From an uncultured Chlorobiaceae bacterium (lineage in GTDB: Bacteria; Bacteroidota; Chlorobiia; Chlorobiales; Chlorobiaceae), in the NCBI GenBank assembly GCA_903822595.1, contig CAIJPS010000024.1:1-64000 (forward strand): a DNA stretch of 64,000 nt, read 5' to 3'. Both the position numbers and the translations under genes were made by a program. Below the pieces are notes generated by a model. That model did not search any database. It saw only the letters and a program-made list of their open reading frames with translations, and was not told the origin of the DNA. How positions within the stretch are numbered: position 1 is the stretch's first letter; each line of letters begins with the position of its first letter. This document shows, piece by piece, positions 27,885 to 35,640 of the stretch.

Positions 27885-28394
27885 TTACCTTGCTGGATGC
27901 GTGCCCTCCCCCCATCGTTCACCTCTGTCGGGGCGTTTGCGTGTAGCGATACGTTCCAGTATTATTTTCAGCGAACTGCGCTGTTCGGGAGTGCATACTC
28001 CGGCCAGTTCATGAAAATGAAGCGCAAGCTGCCGCTCAATTGCTGCCTGATGGGAGCCGATGTTACCTGCAATACCCGCTATTTTTATGGTATCGGGTCG
28101 CTCTTGAAGCGACACTTCAACCAGTTGTTTTTTCAGCAGGGCAATCGCCTCCATTTCAGCTCCGACTTTTCGAAAATGTTCCTTTCGCAGTCTCTCAAAA
28201 CTGAGCGCTTGTGACTCACTGAGACCAAGTTCCCTGGTAAAAGAGTGCTGCCTTTGATGATGGTTCGCAGCTTCGCTCCCGGGTATCACCCTGTTGGTTT
28301 CCTGCCACCACAGTGTGCCAAGCAGTGATACGTTGAGTAAAGCAAGAAGCACGAGCGCAGTTGTAACAAGTCGTTTTGAATTCAGAACATTCAT
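27885..28394 (-). CDS. Periplasmic heavy-metal-sensor-like protein (CnrX/ZraP/Spy-type)
   Basis: A 169-residue protein. An N-terminal signal/anchor helix (about 9-30) precedes a helical periplasmic domain rich in His, Glu and Gln. The pattern ELGLSESQALSFERLRKEHF, then repeated helices ending HFHELAGVCTPEQRSSLKIIL, is that of metal-resistance sensors such as CnrX, ZraP and CpxP/Spy proteins. It is the last gene of a set with an ECF sigma factor and a one-helix membrane protein. By analogy it would sense metal or envelope stress. The inducing signal is not visible in the sequence. Confidence 0.75.
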   Translation of the reverse strand: MNVLNSKRLVTTALVLLALLNVSLLGTLWWQETNRVIPGSEAANHHQRQHSFTRELGLSESQALSFERLRKEHFRKVGAEMEAIALLKKQLVEVSLQERPDTIKIAGIAGNIGSHQAAIERQLALHFHELAGVCTPEQRSSLKIILERIATRKRPDRGERWGEGTHPAR

Positions 28395-28478
28395 GAGATC
28401 ATTAAATCAGGTTCTCTCTGCATCAGGCAGGAATTTTGTATCATCTTCGGCATCGGTTCTTTTTTCCAATCTCTTGTT

Positions 28479-28868
28479 TCAAGGTGTCTGGTTGCTCTCT
28501 GTTCCCGCTACCGCAGGGTACGTGGCGCTTGTCTGGTCATAGTATGCAAATTCTTGACTGGTATACTCATCACCTTGATTGTCAAGCAGTTCGCTGACAC
28601 TCCCTGTCGCTTGTTGGTTACCATCAAATACCGTGACAAGTGCCGAGCCAAGATTGACAACAAGAAGCATGGCCATGAATGCCAGCCGGAAATCCAAACG
28701 TGTGCTCATTTTCCCATTTGCCTGCACCGATCCTGCTCCGAACTCCCGTTCCACTCTTTGCATCAGCTTGACCCTGAAAAGATGGTGCACCTCAAGAGGA
28801 GCCACCTCATCAAGCAACGCCATGGTCTCGACAACCCTCGCGTCTATATTTTCGTTACGCTTTTTCAT
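28479..28868 (-). CDS. Single-pass membrane protein, candidate anti-sigma factor
   Basis: A 129-residue protein. A charged N-terminal cytoplasmic part (1-57; MKKRNENIDARVVETMALLDEVAPLE.. in style) precedes one membrane helix (about 58-80, FRLAFMAMLLVVNLGSALVTV) and a short acidic C-terminal tail outside. The layout fits an anti-sigma factor holding the sigma protein encoded just upstream; size and topology resemble CnrY-like proteins, though sequence identity cannot be claimed. No zinc-binding HxxxCxxC motif is seen. Confidence 0.6.
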   Translation of the reverse strand: MKKRNENIDARVVETMALLDEVAPLEVHHLFRVKLMQRVEREFGAGSVQANGKMSTRLDFRLAFMAMLLVVNLGSALVTVFDGNQQATGSVSELLDNQGDEYTSQEFAYYDQTSATYPAVAGTESNQTP

Positions 28869-28933
28869 TTTTACACTCCTGTTTCATTACATAGGACGAC
28901 AGGTTGGTCAAAAACTTGTGGTTTACGAAAAAA

Positions 28934-29476
28934 TTAATGTTCGCTGTAGTATGCATAGAGCTTGTTGTGAAGATTTTTTTTTGCCCGGTGCACCAGAGAT
29001 TCGACCGCAGATACCGATGTTTTCAGAATATCGGCAATTTCCTGCTGACTATATCCCTCCTGCTTGCTGAGAAGAAAAGCTGTTCTCTGACTCTCGGGGA
29101 GCGAATTCAGTGCCTCCAGTAATATTTCAGCACGTTCGTTTCCGGCCAGGGCATCGGCTGGATTTTCATTGCTGGGCGCTGCAATCTCCTCTGTTGGATC
29201 AGTAATGCCGATAATCCTTTTTAATGAGCTGAACCGCTTTTTCCTCTTCAAACGGCGCAGGTGGTCGAGAGATTTCGTGACGGCAATTCTGTAAATCCAG
29301 GTTGAGAGTTTTGCCTCTTCACGAAACTGCTCAAGAGAGCGGAAAACCTCCACAAAGACATCTTGTGCAAGATCTTCCGCATCTTCACGGTTAAAGACAA
29401 AACGGTAACAGGTATTGATCACCATCTCCTGGTGTTCGGCAACAAGGCTATTGTAGAGCTTTTCACGGGATGTCAT
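28934..29476 (-). CDS. ECF RNA polymerase sigma factor
   Basis: A 180-residue sigma-70 family protein of extracytoplasmic-function type. Region 2 carries [16 protein letters not shown] and [18 protein letters not shown] (about 32-75). A Pro/Glu/Asn-rich linker follows, then region 4 ([26 protein letters not shown], then [14 protein letters not shown], about 120-172). No region 1 or 3. It lies 17 bases downstream of a phosphohexomutase gene and upstream of the candidate anti-sigma gene. It probably directs a stress or metal-response regulon and its own cassette. Confidence 0.92.
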
Positions 29477-29493: not shown

Positions 29494-30876
29494 TCAGGCG
29501 AGTTTTGCGGCAAAGGCAAGAACCTTGTCAACTTTCTCCTGTGAGTCTGCTTCACAATAAAGGCGAAGTACCGGTTCAGTTCCAGATGGCCGGATAAGCA
29601 TCCATCCTCCTTCAAAGTGATATTTATAGCCGTCGAGATTGCTGAATTTCAAAACTTTGTATCCGGCGATGGTTGTAAGTTCGCCCTTTGATGCGCGGTC
29701 AATAATAGCCTGTTTTTTTGCATCACTGACATGCAGGTCGTGGCGGTTGTAGCAGAAAAAACCATACTCATCATAGAGTTCCTGAACCAGTTCTGAAAGG
29801 GTTTTCTCCCGGCGCGTCATCATCTCAAGAATCAGCAGCCCGGTATAGACACCGTCCCGTTCCGGCAAAAATGCAGTAATCCCTATGCCGCCCGACTCTT
29901 CACCACCCATAAGGATATCGTTGGTGGTCATGAGTTTGCTTACATGCTTGAAGCCGACTTGCAACTCATGCATCGTGAGATGATGTTTCTGGCATATTTT
30001 ATCGATGATGTCAGTCAGGGCAAATGTTTTTGCAACTTCGCCTCTCTGGTGCTTTTCCTCGACCAGATCCTTGAGAATAATAGCGAAGAGTTTATGGGAG
30101 TCCACAAAGGCGCCATGTTCGTCGAGCATGCCTATCCGGTCAGCATCTCCGTCATTGATAATGGCGACATCAAGTTCAACCTCCTTGAAGAATTCGATGA
30201 ATTCTCCGATATATTGAGGCATCGGTTCAGGATTAATTCCTCCGAAACCAGGGTTGATGCTGCAGTGATAGCAACTCAGCATTGATTCATCGAACAGGCT
30301 GGTTAGAAGATCCTGTCCGGCACCGAACATGGCATTGTGCGCTATTTTTATTCTTGATTCGCGGATCAGCGGGAGGTTAACGCTGCTCTTCAGGTAGTTG
30401 AGATAAAATCCCTTCATGTCGACCAGCTCAATCAGTTTCCTGTCGGCCACAATTGGTGTTTGCGGATCTATCCTGGTCAGATTGGTTTCGATTTCTGTGA
30501 TGACTTCCGGGTGCGCCGGGCCGCCATAGGAGGCCTTGACCTTGAATCCGTTATAGATGGCCGGATTGTGGGATGCGGTGATCACAATGCCACCGGCGAG
30601 CTGCTTTGCTTTCGTATAGAGCGAGACGGAGGGAGTTGAGGCAAAACTATCCGACAGAAATACCTTCAGCCCTTGTGAAGAAAAAACTTCGGCGGTATAT
30701 TCCGCAAACTCTTTCGACATGAAGCGGGTATCGTAGCCGACGCACACCCCTTTCGCCCTGTTGGGATGGTCAAGAAAGTAGAGGGAGGAGGCCAGAGCGG
30801 CAAGTTTAAGGTTGTCAAAGGTATAATCTTTTGCGATGACCGCGCGCCACCCGTCAGTACCGAATTTAACTTGCAT
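29494..30876 (-). CDS. Phosphoglucomutase/phosphomannomutase family protein
   Basis: A 460-residue alpha-D-phosphohexomutase. It starts [15 protein letters not shown]; the catalytic serine loop is TASHNP near 103, the metal loop DGDADR near 242, the sugar loop GGEESGG near 325, and the phosphate loop RPSGTEP near 430. It moves phosphate between C1 and C6 of hexoses, for glycogen or polysaccharide synthesis; glucose is the likely substrate. It is distinct from the GlmM-type gene at 9993-11429. It appears to head a transcript with the sigma-factor cassette. Confidence 0.88.
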
Positions 30877-32985: not shown

Positions 32986-35640
32986 TTATCGCTCTTTTTT
33001 CATGATCAGCATCGCACGTTTTTCCAGCCGTTTTGATGCGCTCATTTTTCCTGTTTTCTGGTAGAGGTGGGCCAGATTTTCAAGAATTCGCGCAACAGTG
33101 GGGTGATCGGGGCCAAGTGTGTTCTCAACGATTGCAAGAGAACGCCGGAATAGTGGTTCAGCCTCGGCATTGCGTCCTCCGTCGAAGTAAATCACGGCAA
33201 GGTTATTAAGGCATGTCGCAACACCGGGGTGAAGAGTACCGAGATCCTTTTCCCGGATTGCAAGTGAACGTTTGATAAGATGTTCTGCCTCACTATGCTG
33301 GTCGTTGGTGAGGTAAACTTCTGCAAGGTTGTTAAGGATGACAAGATGGCCGATGTAACCCGTTTTATTGATACCCTCGATTATGCTCATCGCATGCCGG
33401 TAGAGTGGCGCGGCATCAGCGTAGCGACCTTCGGCAGAGTAAAGCGCCGCAAGGTTGTTCATGCTCATTGCTGCATCAAGGCTTTCCGGGCCAAAGAGCT
33501 TTTCCATGATATCGAGAGCGTGCTTGCAGAGCGGCTCGGCTTCAGCGTAGTTTCCCTGATCGCTGTACAAAAGGGCAAAATTATTAAGGGTAAGGGCAAT
33601 ATCGGGATGAAGGGGAGCAAAGAGTTTTTCCCTGATGTCGAGAGCGCGACGGTAAAGAGGAACAGCTTTGTTGTATCTGCCCTGAATGCGAAATAACTCT
33701 GCCATGTTGTTCAGACTTGTTGCAACATCGGGGTGAAGAGTACCAAAGAGCTTCTCCCGTATGGTCAGAGAACGGGTCAAGAGCGCCTCGGCCTCTGCAT
33801 ACTTGCCCAGGATAGTGTACAGTACCCCAAGGTTATTCAGGCTTGTTGCCAGATCAGGGTGTTCAGGAGTCAGTACTTTTTCCCTTATGGCGAGCGCACG
33901 GCGGGAGAGAGGCAACGCTTCTGCATATCTTCCCTCACTTTTGTAGAGCGCTGCGAGGTTACTCAGACTCGTTGCTACATCAGGGTGTACCAAACCAAAG
34001 AGCTTCTCCCGGATTTTCAGCGCACGCATGGAGAGAGGTTCGGCTTCAGCGTATTTCCCCTGATTTTTTTTCATGGCGCCCATGTTGCAGAGGCTCAGGG
34101 CAACATCGGGGTGTTCCGGGCCAAAGAGCTTCTCCCTTATGGCCAGAGCACGACGGTTGTAAGAGTCGGCCTCTTCATATCGGCCCTGAATGCGCATCAA
34201 TTCTGCAAGGTTATTCAGTGTTGTTGCGACTTCAGGATGATCAAGGTGAAGAGGGCCAAACAGCTTTTCGTGTATGGCAAGTGCCTGGCGGTAGAGCGGC
34301 TCAGCCTTTTGATATTGCCCGAGGGTAAAGTAAAGTCCCGCAAGGTTGTTCATGCTCGATCCCGTATCTCGATGCCCGGGACCGAGGAGCTTTGTCCTGG
34401 TGGCCAGCGCACGCTCGTGGAGAGGAAGAGCTTCTGCCAGACGACCCAAGCAGATATAGAGCTCTGCAAGATTGTGCATACTTTTTGCAACATCAGGGTG
34501 TTGCATGCCAAAGATTTTTTCTCTGATGGCCAGCGCACGCATCGATAGTGGCAATGCTTCAGCGTATTTCCCCTCACTTTTACAAATTAATGCAAGGTTG
34601 CTCAGACTTGTGGCCACATCAGGGTGAAGAGGGCCAAGCAGCGTCTCCCTGATGGCCAGCGCCCGGCGGCAGAGCAGTTCGGCTTTGGCGTATCTGCCCT
34701 GATTTTTATAGAGGAGTGCAAGGTTGTTCAGGGTTGTTGCCACCAAAGGGTGTTCAAGGCCAAAAGCGTGCTCCCTGATAGCAAGAGATCGCAGAGAGAG
34801 AGGTTCAGCTTCAGCATACCGGTTTTCAGAGCGGTAGAGTTCCGACAAGTTGTTGAGCGCTCTTGCTGCATCTGGCGGGTTACTGCCAGGGTTGTTCTCC
34901 CAGATATCCAGAGCGCGGAGGTAGAGTGGCTCGGCTTCGGCATACCTTCCCTGGTCATAGAACACTCTTGCAAGATTGTTCAGACTTTGGGCAATATCGG
35001 GGTGATTCTGTCCAAGAAGTTTCTCCCTGATTGCAAGTGAGCGTTTATTGAGAGACTCGGCCTCTGCATATCGACCAAGAATACGATACAACTCGCTTAT
35101 ATTGTTCAGGCTCAGGGCAACCCCGGCATTGAGAGAACCGAAAAGGCCCTCCTGGAGAGCAAGCGCACGGGTGAAAAGAGGCTCAGCTTCAGCATATCTT
35201 CCTTCAGTTTTGTATAACTCGGCCAGGTTGTTGAGACTCAGGGCCACATCAGCGTGACGGGGGCCAAGGAGCTTCATGCGAATATCGAGAGCGCGGAGGT
35301 AGAGCGGTTCGGCCTTTGCATATCGTCCCTGGACAAAGTAAAGAGCCGCAAGGTTGTTCAGGCAGAGCGGCAAATCGGGATGAGCAAGGCTGGCATCCGA
35401 TACTTCAAGCCTGTTCTTGGCTTCGATGATCTCTTGCTCGTAGCTTTTTGCGCGATAAAGCTCCTCAGCATCACTATTGATCGCCGCCCGGGCCATGCTG
35501 CCATGGAGCATGAAAGCAGTGAGAACGAGAGAAACAAGCCATACCACTCTTCCATGAGTGACGAGTGGTGAAGGTCTCTGTTGATAGCTATCCCCATGCG
35601 GCCTGCCAGGAGTCAGACCATTGCGGCCAGAACTGCACAT
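32986..35640 (-). CDS. Secreted/anchored TPR protein with 19 kinesin-light-chain-type repeats
   Basis: An 884-residue protein. An N-terminal hydrophobic signal or anchor (about 29-50, ending ARA) is followed from about residue 75 by 19 tandem units of mostly 42 residues. Each reads roughly SLNNLAELYxxxGRYAEAEPLYxRALAIREKLFGPxHPDVA, split here for brevity. One unit has three extra residues (PLHLDHPEVA near residue 470). TPR arrays of this type form a superhelical scaffold for protein binding. The high similarity between units suggests recent expansion by duplication. It has no linked enzyme gene; the only close neighbour is the DUF1566-like fragment. The exact start codon is uncertain. Confidence 0.85.
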   Translation of the reverse strand: MCSSGRNGLTPGRPHGDSYQQRPSPLVTHGRVVWLVSLVLTAFMLHGSMARAAINSDAEELYRAKSYEQEIIEAKNRLEVSDASLAHPDLPLCLNNLAALYFVQGRYAKAEPLYLRALDIRMKLLGPRHADVALSLNNLAELYKTEGRYAEAEPLFTRALALQEGLFGSLNAGVALSLNNISELYRILGRYAEAESLNKRSLAIREKLLGQNHPDIAQSLNNLARVFYDQGRYAEAEPLYLRALDIWENNPGSNPPDAARALNNLSELYRSENRYAEAEPLSLRSLAIREHAFGLEHPLVATTLNNLALLYKNQGRYAKAELLCRRALAIRETLLGPLHPDVATSLSNLALICKSEGKYAEALPLSMRALAIREKIFGMQHPDVAKSMHNLAELYICLGRLAEALPLHERALATRTKLLGPGHRDTGSSMNNLAGLYFTLGQYQKAEPLYRQALAIHEKLFGPLHLDHPEVATTLNNLAELMRIQGRYEEADSYNRRALAIREKLFGPEHPDVALSLCNMGAMKKNQGKYAEAEPLSMRALKIREKLFGLVHPDVATSLSNLAALYKSEGRYAEALPLSRRALAIREKVLTPEHPDLATSLNNLGVLYTILGKYAEAEALLTRSLTIREKLFGTLHPDVATSLNNMAELFRIQGRYNKAVPLYRRALDIREKLFAPLHPDIALTLNNFALLYSDQGNYAEAEPLCKHALDIMEKLFGPESLDAAMSMNNLAALYSAEGRYADAAPLYRHAMSIIEGINKTGYIGHLVILNNLAEVYLTNDQHSEAEHLIKRSLAIREKDLGTLHPGVATCLNNLAVIYFDGGRNAEAEPLFRRSLAIVENTLGPDHPTVARILENLAHLYQKTGKMSASKRLEKRAMLIMKKER

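Follow-up and report, generated by a model that had tools for sequence, protein, structure and literature searches.

How might three small genes, lying together on one strand in a green sulfur bacterium, relay a signal from the cell envelope to a sigma factor? The window (the whole 64,000-nucleotide stretch of DNA analysed here, from an uncultured Chlorobiaceae bacterium) holds such a set, which the first-pass annotation had described as an ECF sigma factor, a 129-residue single-pass protein and a CnrX/ZraP/Spy-like periplasmic protein, in an arrangement mirroring CnrYXH-type signalling. The open reading frames do lie at 29476-28934, 28868-28479 and 28394-27885, all on the minus strand, and the middle one indeed encodes 129 residues with one transmembrane helix. 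We refer to the three genes as sig, asg and mr; with their upstream neighbour and the residues discussed below, they are placed as follows.

28934..29476, minus strand: sig, ECF sigma factor of 180 aa (Pfam Sigma70_r2 and Sigma70_r4_2, NCBIfam TIGR02937)
28479..28868, minus strand: asg, 129-aa single-pass protein, putative anti-sigma factor (open reading frame, transmembrane prediction, profile evidence)
27885..28394, minus strand: mr, 169-aa N-anchored protein of Spy/CnrX fold, putative periplasmic sensor (PF13801, predicted structure, Foldseek)
28653..28655, minus strand: codon of asg Asn72, a residue buried in the transmembrane helix (sole invariant column of the first asg alignment)
28332..28334, minus strand: codon of mr Asn21, a residue buried in the transmembrane helix (present in all 117 distinct anchored mr)
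28176..28178, minus strand: codon of mr His73, conserved, candidate ligand (98 of 118 alignment rows)
28017..28019, minus strand: codon of mr His126, aligned with CnrX His119 (104 of 118 rows; profile alignment)
27993..27995, minus strand: codon of mr Cys134, just before the second TPEQ turn (108 of 118 rows; CnrX has Leu127)
29494..30876, minus strand: phosphohexomutase (PGM/PMM; Pfam PGM_PMM I-IV), 17 bp upstream of sig

The first gene is an ECF sigma factor, as annotated: it matches Pfam Sigma70_r2 (E 3.7e-19), Sigma70_r4_2 (E 2.1e-18) and NCBIfam TIGR02937 (E 2.2e-32), and has the ECF make-up of sigma-70 regions 2 and 4 without region 3. Its aligned relatives share 46-89 % identity, and its own genome holds four matches to it, counting sig itself. 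The absence of adjoining metal efflux genes is likewise confirmed among the neighbours scanned by Pfam, which are the phosphohexomutase, a flippase-like Polysacc_synt protein and LpxB.

Is the trio more than a chance neighbourhood? Searching named genomes with the sigma factor gave 141 loci, the best 80 of which comprise 65 from Chlorobiaceae/Chlorobiales (L035-L099) and 15 from outside (Neomarinimicrobiota, KSB1, Ignavibacteria, Bacteroidota and single records with other labels). Among these best 80, asg follows sig at 65 of the 65 Chlorobiaceae loci and mr comes next at 62, the other three all ending at a contig end; at 15 of the 15 outside loci, sig is followed by a single-helix protein of ~102-130 residues and then by an mr-like protein, one of which is cut by a contig end. 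A single asg sequence used as query found relatives inside the genus only (45 of 81 genomes searched), whereas an asg profile matched in 129 of 394 genomes of the phylum. We fetched all 50 profile matches from outside the family: 49 have a sigma gene immediately upstream and 42 an mr-like open reading frame downstream, one of these 42 being not anchored. An mr profile led to at least six further loci (L271-L276), each with a sigma gene and a small transmembrane protein upstream. The order sig-asg-mr thus recurs in records of Chlorobiaceae, Ignavibacteria, Neomarinimicrobiota, KSB1 and Bacteroidota, and because asg and mr follow sig so regularly, with contig ends at the three loci that deviate, the trio is a real, conserved module and not a chance association. 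The synteny comparison that the annotation had called for therefore leaves its grouping of the three genes intact.

What might the middle protein do? Its predicted layout is that of a single-pass N-in protein, with cytoplasmic helices at residues 4-20 and 31-43, a transmembrane helix at ~61-82 and a short, conserved periplasmic tail; the structure model itself is weak (pLDDT 68). The annotation had found no recognisable anti-sigma motif in it, and this holds at the level of Pfam, which gave no match to the 129 residues; nor did Pfam match the HxxxCxxC zinc motif of zf-HC2 in the window asg or report it among 68 aligned asg. The NCBIfam model NF052375 ('antisigma') reached E 0.0011 with the window asg, far under its cut-off, and sub-threshold NCBIfam anti-sigma matches occur in nine of the 68 alignment members. 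By profile, however, the cytoplasmic part weakly matches longer, ECF-linked anti-sigma proteins, so the claim does not hold at that level. Eight of the 50 matches from outside the family lack mr; one has 129 residues and the other seven have 221-473, and all eight lie directly behind an ECF sigma gene. The profile (weakly) covers the last stretch of their cytoplasmic domain together with the membrane helix. At L192, the profile aligns with the end of a zinc-finger domain and the following transmembrane helix of a protein that is nearly at the Pfam zf-HC2 cut-off, and in one complete trio (L274) the asg slot holds a zf-HC2 protein over that cut-off. Because the profile reaches longer proteins directly behind other ECF sigma genes, and because a zf-HC2 protein occupies the same slot, we infer that asg is an anti-sigma factor in a pared-down form, which differs from the zinc-finger (class I) anti-sigma factors in having neither the zinc motif nor the first half of the domain. 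Profile-profile comparison with CnrY gave a probability of 8.9 % and P 0.0037, with the two helices in register. The possibility that asg is a protein without relatives was considered and rejected on the strength of the longer ECF-linked proteins and of L274.

The third protein has the domain of known envelope sensors and chaperones. It matches Pfam PF13801 (Metal_resist) with E 7.4e-12 and 46.0 bits, against a gathering score of 29.2; of the aligned mr, 65/65 match Metal_resist (E 0.01), 19/65 match LTXXQ, and 16 and 7 match the NCBIfam models of CpxP and Spy, respectively. In its predicted structure (pLDDT 82.5), mr is similar to ZraP, CnrX, Spy and CpxP, with Foldseek probabilities of 1.00 for chains of ZraP and of CnrX, 0.95-1.00 for those of Spy and 0.99-1.00 for CpxP at E-values of only 0.02-0.3, and with Z scores of 9-12, which are not high for helical bundles; the fold search does not discriminate among the four. 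Sequence searches of the PDB with mr and asg were uninformative. Spy, CpxP and ZraP are soluble and act with two-component systems or as chaperones, whereas mr has an N-terminal transmembrane anchor and is encoded beside a sigma factor and a putative anti-sigma factor. The CnrX/ZraP/Spy likeness of the annotation is thus borne out, but the protein is not free in the periplasm.

Judged by profile-profile comparison with 12 CnrX sequences (probability 96.7 %, E 3e-10), mr is homologous to CnrX. Does it, then, sense metal? A strict CnrX-type sensor would bind copper or zinc (rather than nickel or cobalt) through His73, His126 and Cys134 of mr and would control a regulon of metal homeostasis. Besides the homology, the conservation of certain residues speaks for this. 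The metal ligands of CnrX (His42, His46, Glu63, His119 and Met123) include one that is kept in mr, His119 corresponding to His126, and mr has its own conserved Cys134 (108/118 rows) and His73 (98/118 rows); the other four positions (42, 46, 63 and 123), however, align with variable or different residues. The gene neighbourhood is similarly divided. Among 61 distant trios (L107/L143 entered twice), 45 have a downstream open reading frame to scan, and these include genes for MbnP (3/45), MauG-type peroxidase (2/45) and YHYH proteins (2/45); against this, the window has no metal-efflux gene, and only one CusB/HlyD-type gene appears among the 45. Overall, we consider strict metal sensing unlikely.

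The comparison with the metal-responsive systems themselves is instructive. CnrYXH is described as the classical case of a sigma factor held by a membrane anti-sigma factor, with an anchored sensor (PMC4598750, PMC4803752), and loss of either CnrY or CnrX is reported to raise cnr expression (PMC4803752). Like CnrYXH and NccYXH of Cupriavidus metallidurans, the trio combines an ECF sigma factor, a short single-pass (putative) anti-sigma factor with a two-helix cytoplasmic part and an N-anchored sensor of the same fold. The gene order differs: all 12 CnrYXH-type operons that we inspected (11 of 79 plasmid records with CnrX relatives, plus pMOL28) read Y-X-H and lie beside metal-resistance genes, whereas the window trio reads H-Y-X and adjoins none. 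What the annotation described therefore stands as a CnrYXH-like sigma/anti-sigma/sensor module with conserved synteny and no metal-efflux neighbours, but in another gene order. Eleven of these operons are from sphingomonad plasmids (L260-L270; hypothetical protein, periplasmic heavy metal sensor, sigma factor), and copper genes adjoin 11/11, which again lends something to the metal-sensor alternative; mr itself gave no tblastn match to plasmids. The accessible part of one report (PMC12826043) mentions an Azospirillum operon in which a sigma factor is encoded with a hypothetical protein and a periplasmic heavy metal sensor; no heavy-metal sensor gene was seen in the Azospirillum rpoE6 stretch.

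The most surprising part of the module is a pair of asparagines. Asn72, which sits midway along the membrane helix, forms the only invariant column of the first asg alignment, and Asn21 in the helix of mr is one of four invariant columns there. With the distant set included, the residue is found in 120/120 distinct asg and 117/117 distinct anchored mr, and in 39/39 asg and 33/33 mr at <40 % mutual identity. Since the proteins have a common origin, these counts do not represent independent events; the asg profile is also biased towards sequences with Asn. The distinct counts take L107 and L143 as the one locus that they are, and leave out L271-L276 as well as the two exceptions in the wider count, L181 (which has no mr) and L189 (whose mr is secreted). 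Both asparagines lie at a similar depth, with 10 (asg) and 12 (mr) uncharged residues separating them from the last charge on the cytoplasmic side; further asparagines within nine residues are rare (asg 16/2178, all at +6 to +9; mr 0/2124). At the six loci found through mr, the residue is present in 6/6 mr and in 4/6 asg; L274 and L276 do not have it at that place, so it is not strictly required in asg. It is absent in 11/11 anti-sigma-like proteins that have no anchored Spy-like partner, among them those of two Bacteroides finegoldii operons (sigma factor, small transmembrane protein, secreted protein), and, by eye, a buried Asn occurs in 0/12 CnrX helices and in 1/12 CnrY, near the periplasmic end. 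On the simplest reading, the helices of sensor and anti-sigma factor would meet through a buried Asn pair. We found no report of it in the titles and abstract openings of the open-licence PubMed Central papers listed. One residue in each partner, nearly invariant across phyla, would mark a possible sensor/anti-sigma contact.

How might the three proteins work together? We consider it probable that the trio is an envelope-stress switch, in which mr controls asg by way of Asn-paired helices and asg restrains the ECF sigma factor. We envision that asg tethers the sigma factor at the inner membrane by its two short cytoplasmic helices, and that mr pairs with asg within the membrane, one buried Asn per helix, keeping it in the holding state. 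The periplasmic domain of mr might then be occupied or altered, most likely by an unfolded envelope protein, with a metal or thiol ligand at His73, His126 and Cys134 as a possible alternative, whereupon the helix pair would shift and asg release the sigma factor. The freed sigma factor would transcribe its own operon, in some relatives including the operon's soluble Spy-like gene, and probably lepB in one subclade. In the corresponding step of the Cnr system, the release signal from CnrX to the anti-sigma factor is described only as a conformational switch in the accessible part of the source (PMC4598750). Much more tentatively, the trio might represent an unnamed sensor class, widespread in the Fibrobacteres-Chlorobi-Bacteroidetes group, whose receptor is a tethered Spy-type chaperone; an Asn-Asn hydrogen-bonded helix pair would relay the signal, and client load would directly set sigma activity. 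If the switch mechanism is true, Chlorobi, Ignavibacteria and many Bacteroidota would gain a concrete counterpart to the Cpx and sigma-E envelope stress responses.

Alternatively, the sigma factor might be freed by regulated proteolysis, with site-1 and site-2 proteases cutting asg and mr merely shielding it in the manner of RseB. Single-pass N-in proteins with a short periplasmic tail are substrates of such proteases in other systems, asg has just this topology and a conserved tail, and a buried Asn could equally serve a site-2 protease. No protease gene, however, was seen in the conserved neighbourhood inspected, and the buried Asn in both helices, along with the CnrYX precedent, points to a stable complex; we regard proteolysis as quite unlikely.

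A sigma/anti-sigma/Spy operon has already been published: in the 2026 report on Phocaeicola vulgatus, deletion of cirZ switches on the sigma factor and spy, the latter being co-transcribed with the sigma gene and itself one of the sigma factor's targets (PMC13114119). Going by that description, CirY/CirZ-Spy has the order of our trio (sigma factor, anti-sigma factor, Spy-like protein), so the kind of operon is known and the Chlorobiaceae trio is a variant of it. The anti-sigma role was established there by deletion (PMC13114119) and is deduced here from sequence. Among open-licence PubMed Central papers, we found no report of this operon in green sulfur bacteria. The two B. finegoldii operons also share the order; they have a non-anchored third protein and no buried Asn. 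That asg senses alone, with mr a mere product of the regulon in the form of an anchored chaperone, is an improbable reading, for which the P. vulgatus spy gene and the two B. finegoldii operons (whose third protein begins like a signal peptide and matches the mr profile weakly at most) offer parallels, but which leaves the anchor and the invariant buried Asn of mr, needless in a mere output, without a role.

For the envelope-stress switch that we favour, candidate outputs can be sought in the DNA. Between the phosphohexomutase gene (pgm) and sig, a bipartite motif resembling GCAnGAAT-N11-(T/C)GACGTC, which we take to have the general make of ECF promoters, is present at 30 of the 51 Chlorobiaceae loci with a gap of >=60 bp (~1.1 expected; L035-L099 only, from the best 80 of 141 sigma loci). 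It is missing at the other 21, at 14 short-gap loci and in the window, where 14 matches with <=3 mismatches compare with 16.65 expected and give no support; the whole genome of this organism has five loose matches, against 16 for a reversed control. Across 61 genomes of the genus, 38 matches to the exact motif compare with 6 to its reversed control. Of 11 of these loci inspected, three are sites 57-61 bp ahead of lepB (the gene of signal peptidase I, named from reading of the sequence), one is the sigma site, and the other seven have the appearance of coding DNA or unrelated genes. Among 30 lepB upstream regions, the motif is exact in four, present as variants in a few more and absent in most, including that of the window's lepB; with G029 and G008 added, the exact lepB sites amount to six genomes from one part of the genus. 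The element upstream of lepB was noted at L199, L200, L203 and L229-L231.

Accessory genes add to the candidate outputs. By eye, 26 of the 62 Chlorobiaceae loci (from the best 80 of 141) carry a secreted Spy-like gene between asg and mr, e.g., L040, L050, L060 and L072, and all four of these named ones match Metal_resist in a Pfam scan, one just below the cut-off. Five more of the 62 have only a short secreted DUF1104-like protein there, likewise by eye, the Pfam match at L086 being below the cut-off. The window has neither the promoter element nor a Spy-like gene between asg and mr; the genome encodes a soluble Spy-like relative on a different contig (L277). The candidate outputs, chaperone-like genes and a signal peptidase, point to envelope protein quality. 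In 11 relatives (L146, L147, L149, L151-L154, L163, L164, L272 and L273), a second mr-like gene lies directly upstream of the sigma gene, giving two Spy-like genes per operon.

The phosphohexomutase was thought by the annotation to hint at an envelope-stress link. Since the 17-bp gap is short and has no promoter motif, the gene probably shares a transcript with the trio in this strain. By tblastn over the best 80 of 141 loci, however, pgm stands beside sig at 65/65 Chlorobiaceae loci and at 0/15 outside, so that the link survives as a lineage-specific association, while a general functional tie between trio and phosphohexomutase is rejected. Other neighbours vary. MscS-type mechanosensitive channels account for 8 of the 45 downstream genes scanned, our guess at the loci being L167-L169, L172, L173 and relatives of similar lengths. 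Downstream of mr at L104, L276 and L271 there are an MbnP-like gene (L104; Pfam PF20243) and MauG-type or YHYH genes that seem to be related to it, a possible copper link. Elsewhere in the window, at 32986-35640 on the minus strand, an 884-residue open reading frame consists of many similar repeats that look tetratricopeptide-like by eye.
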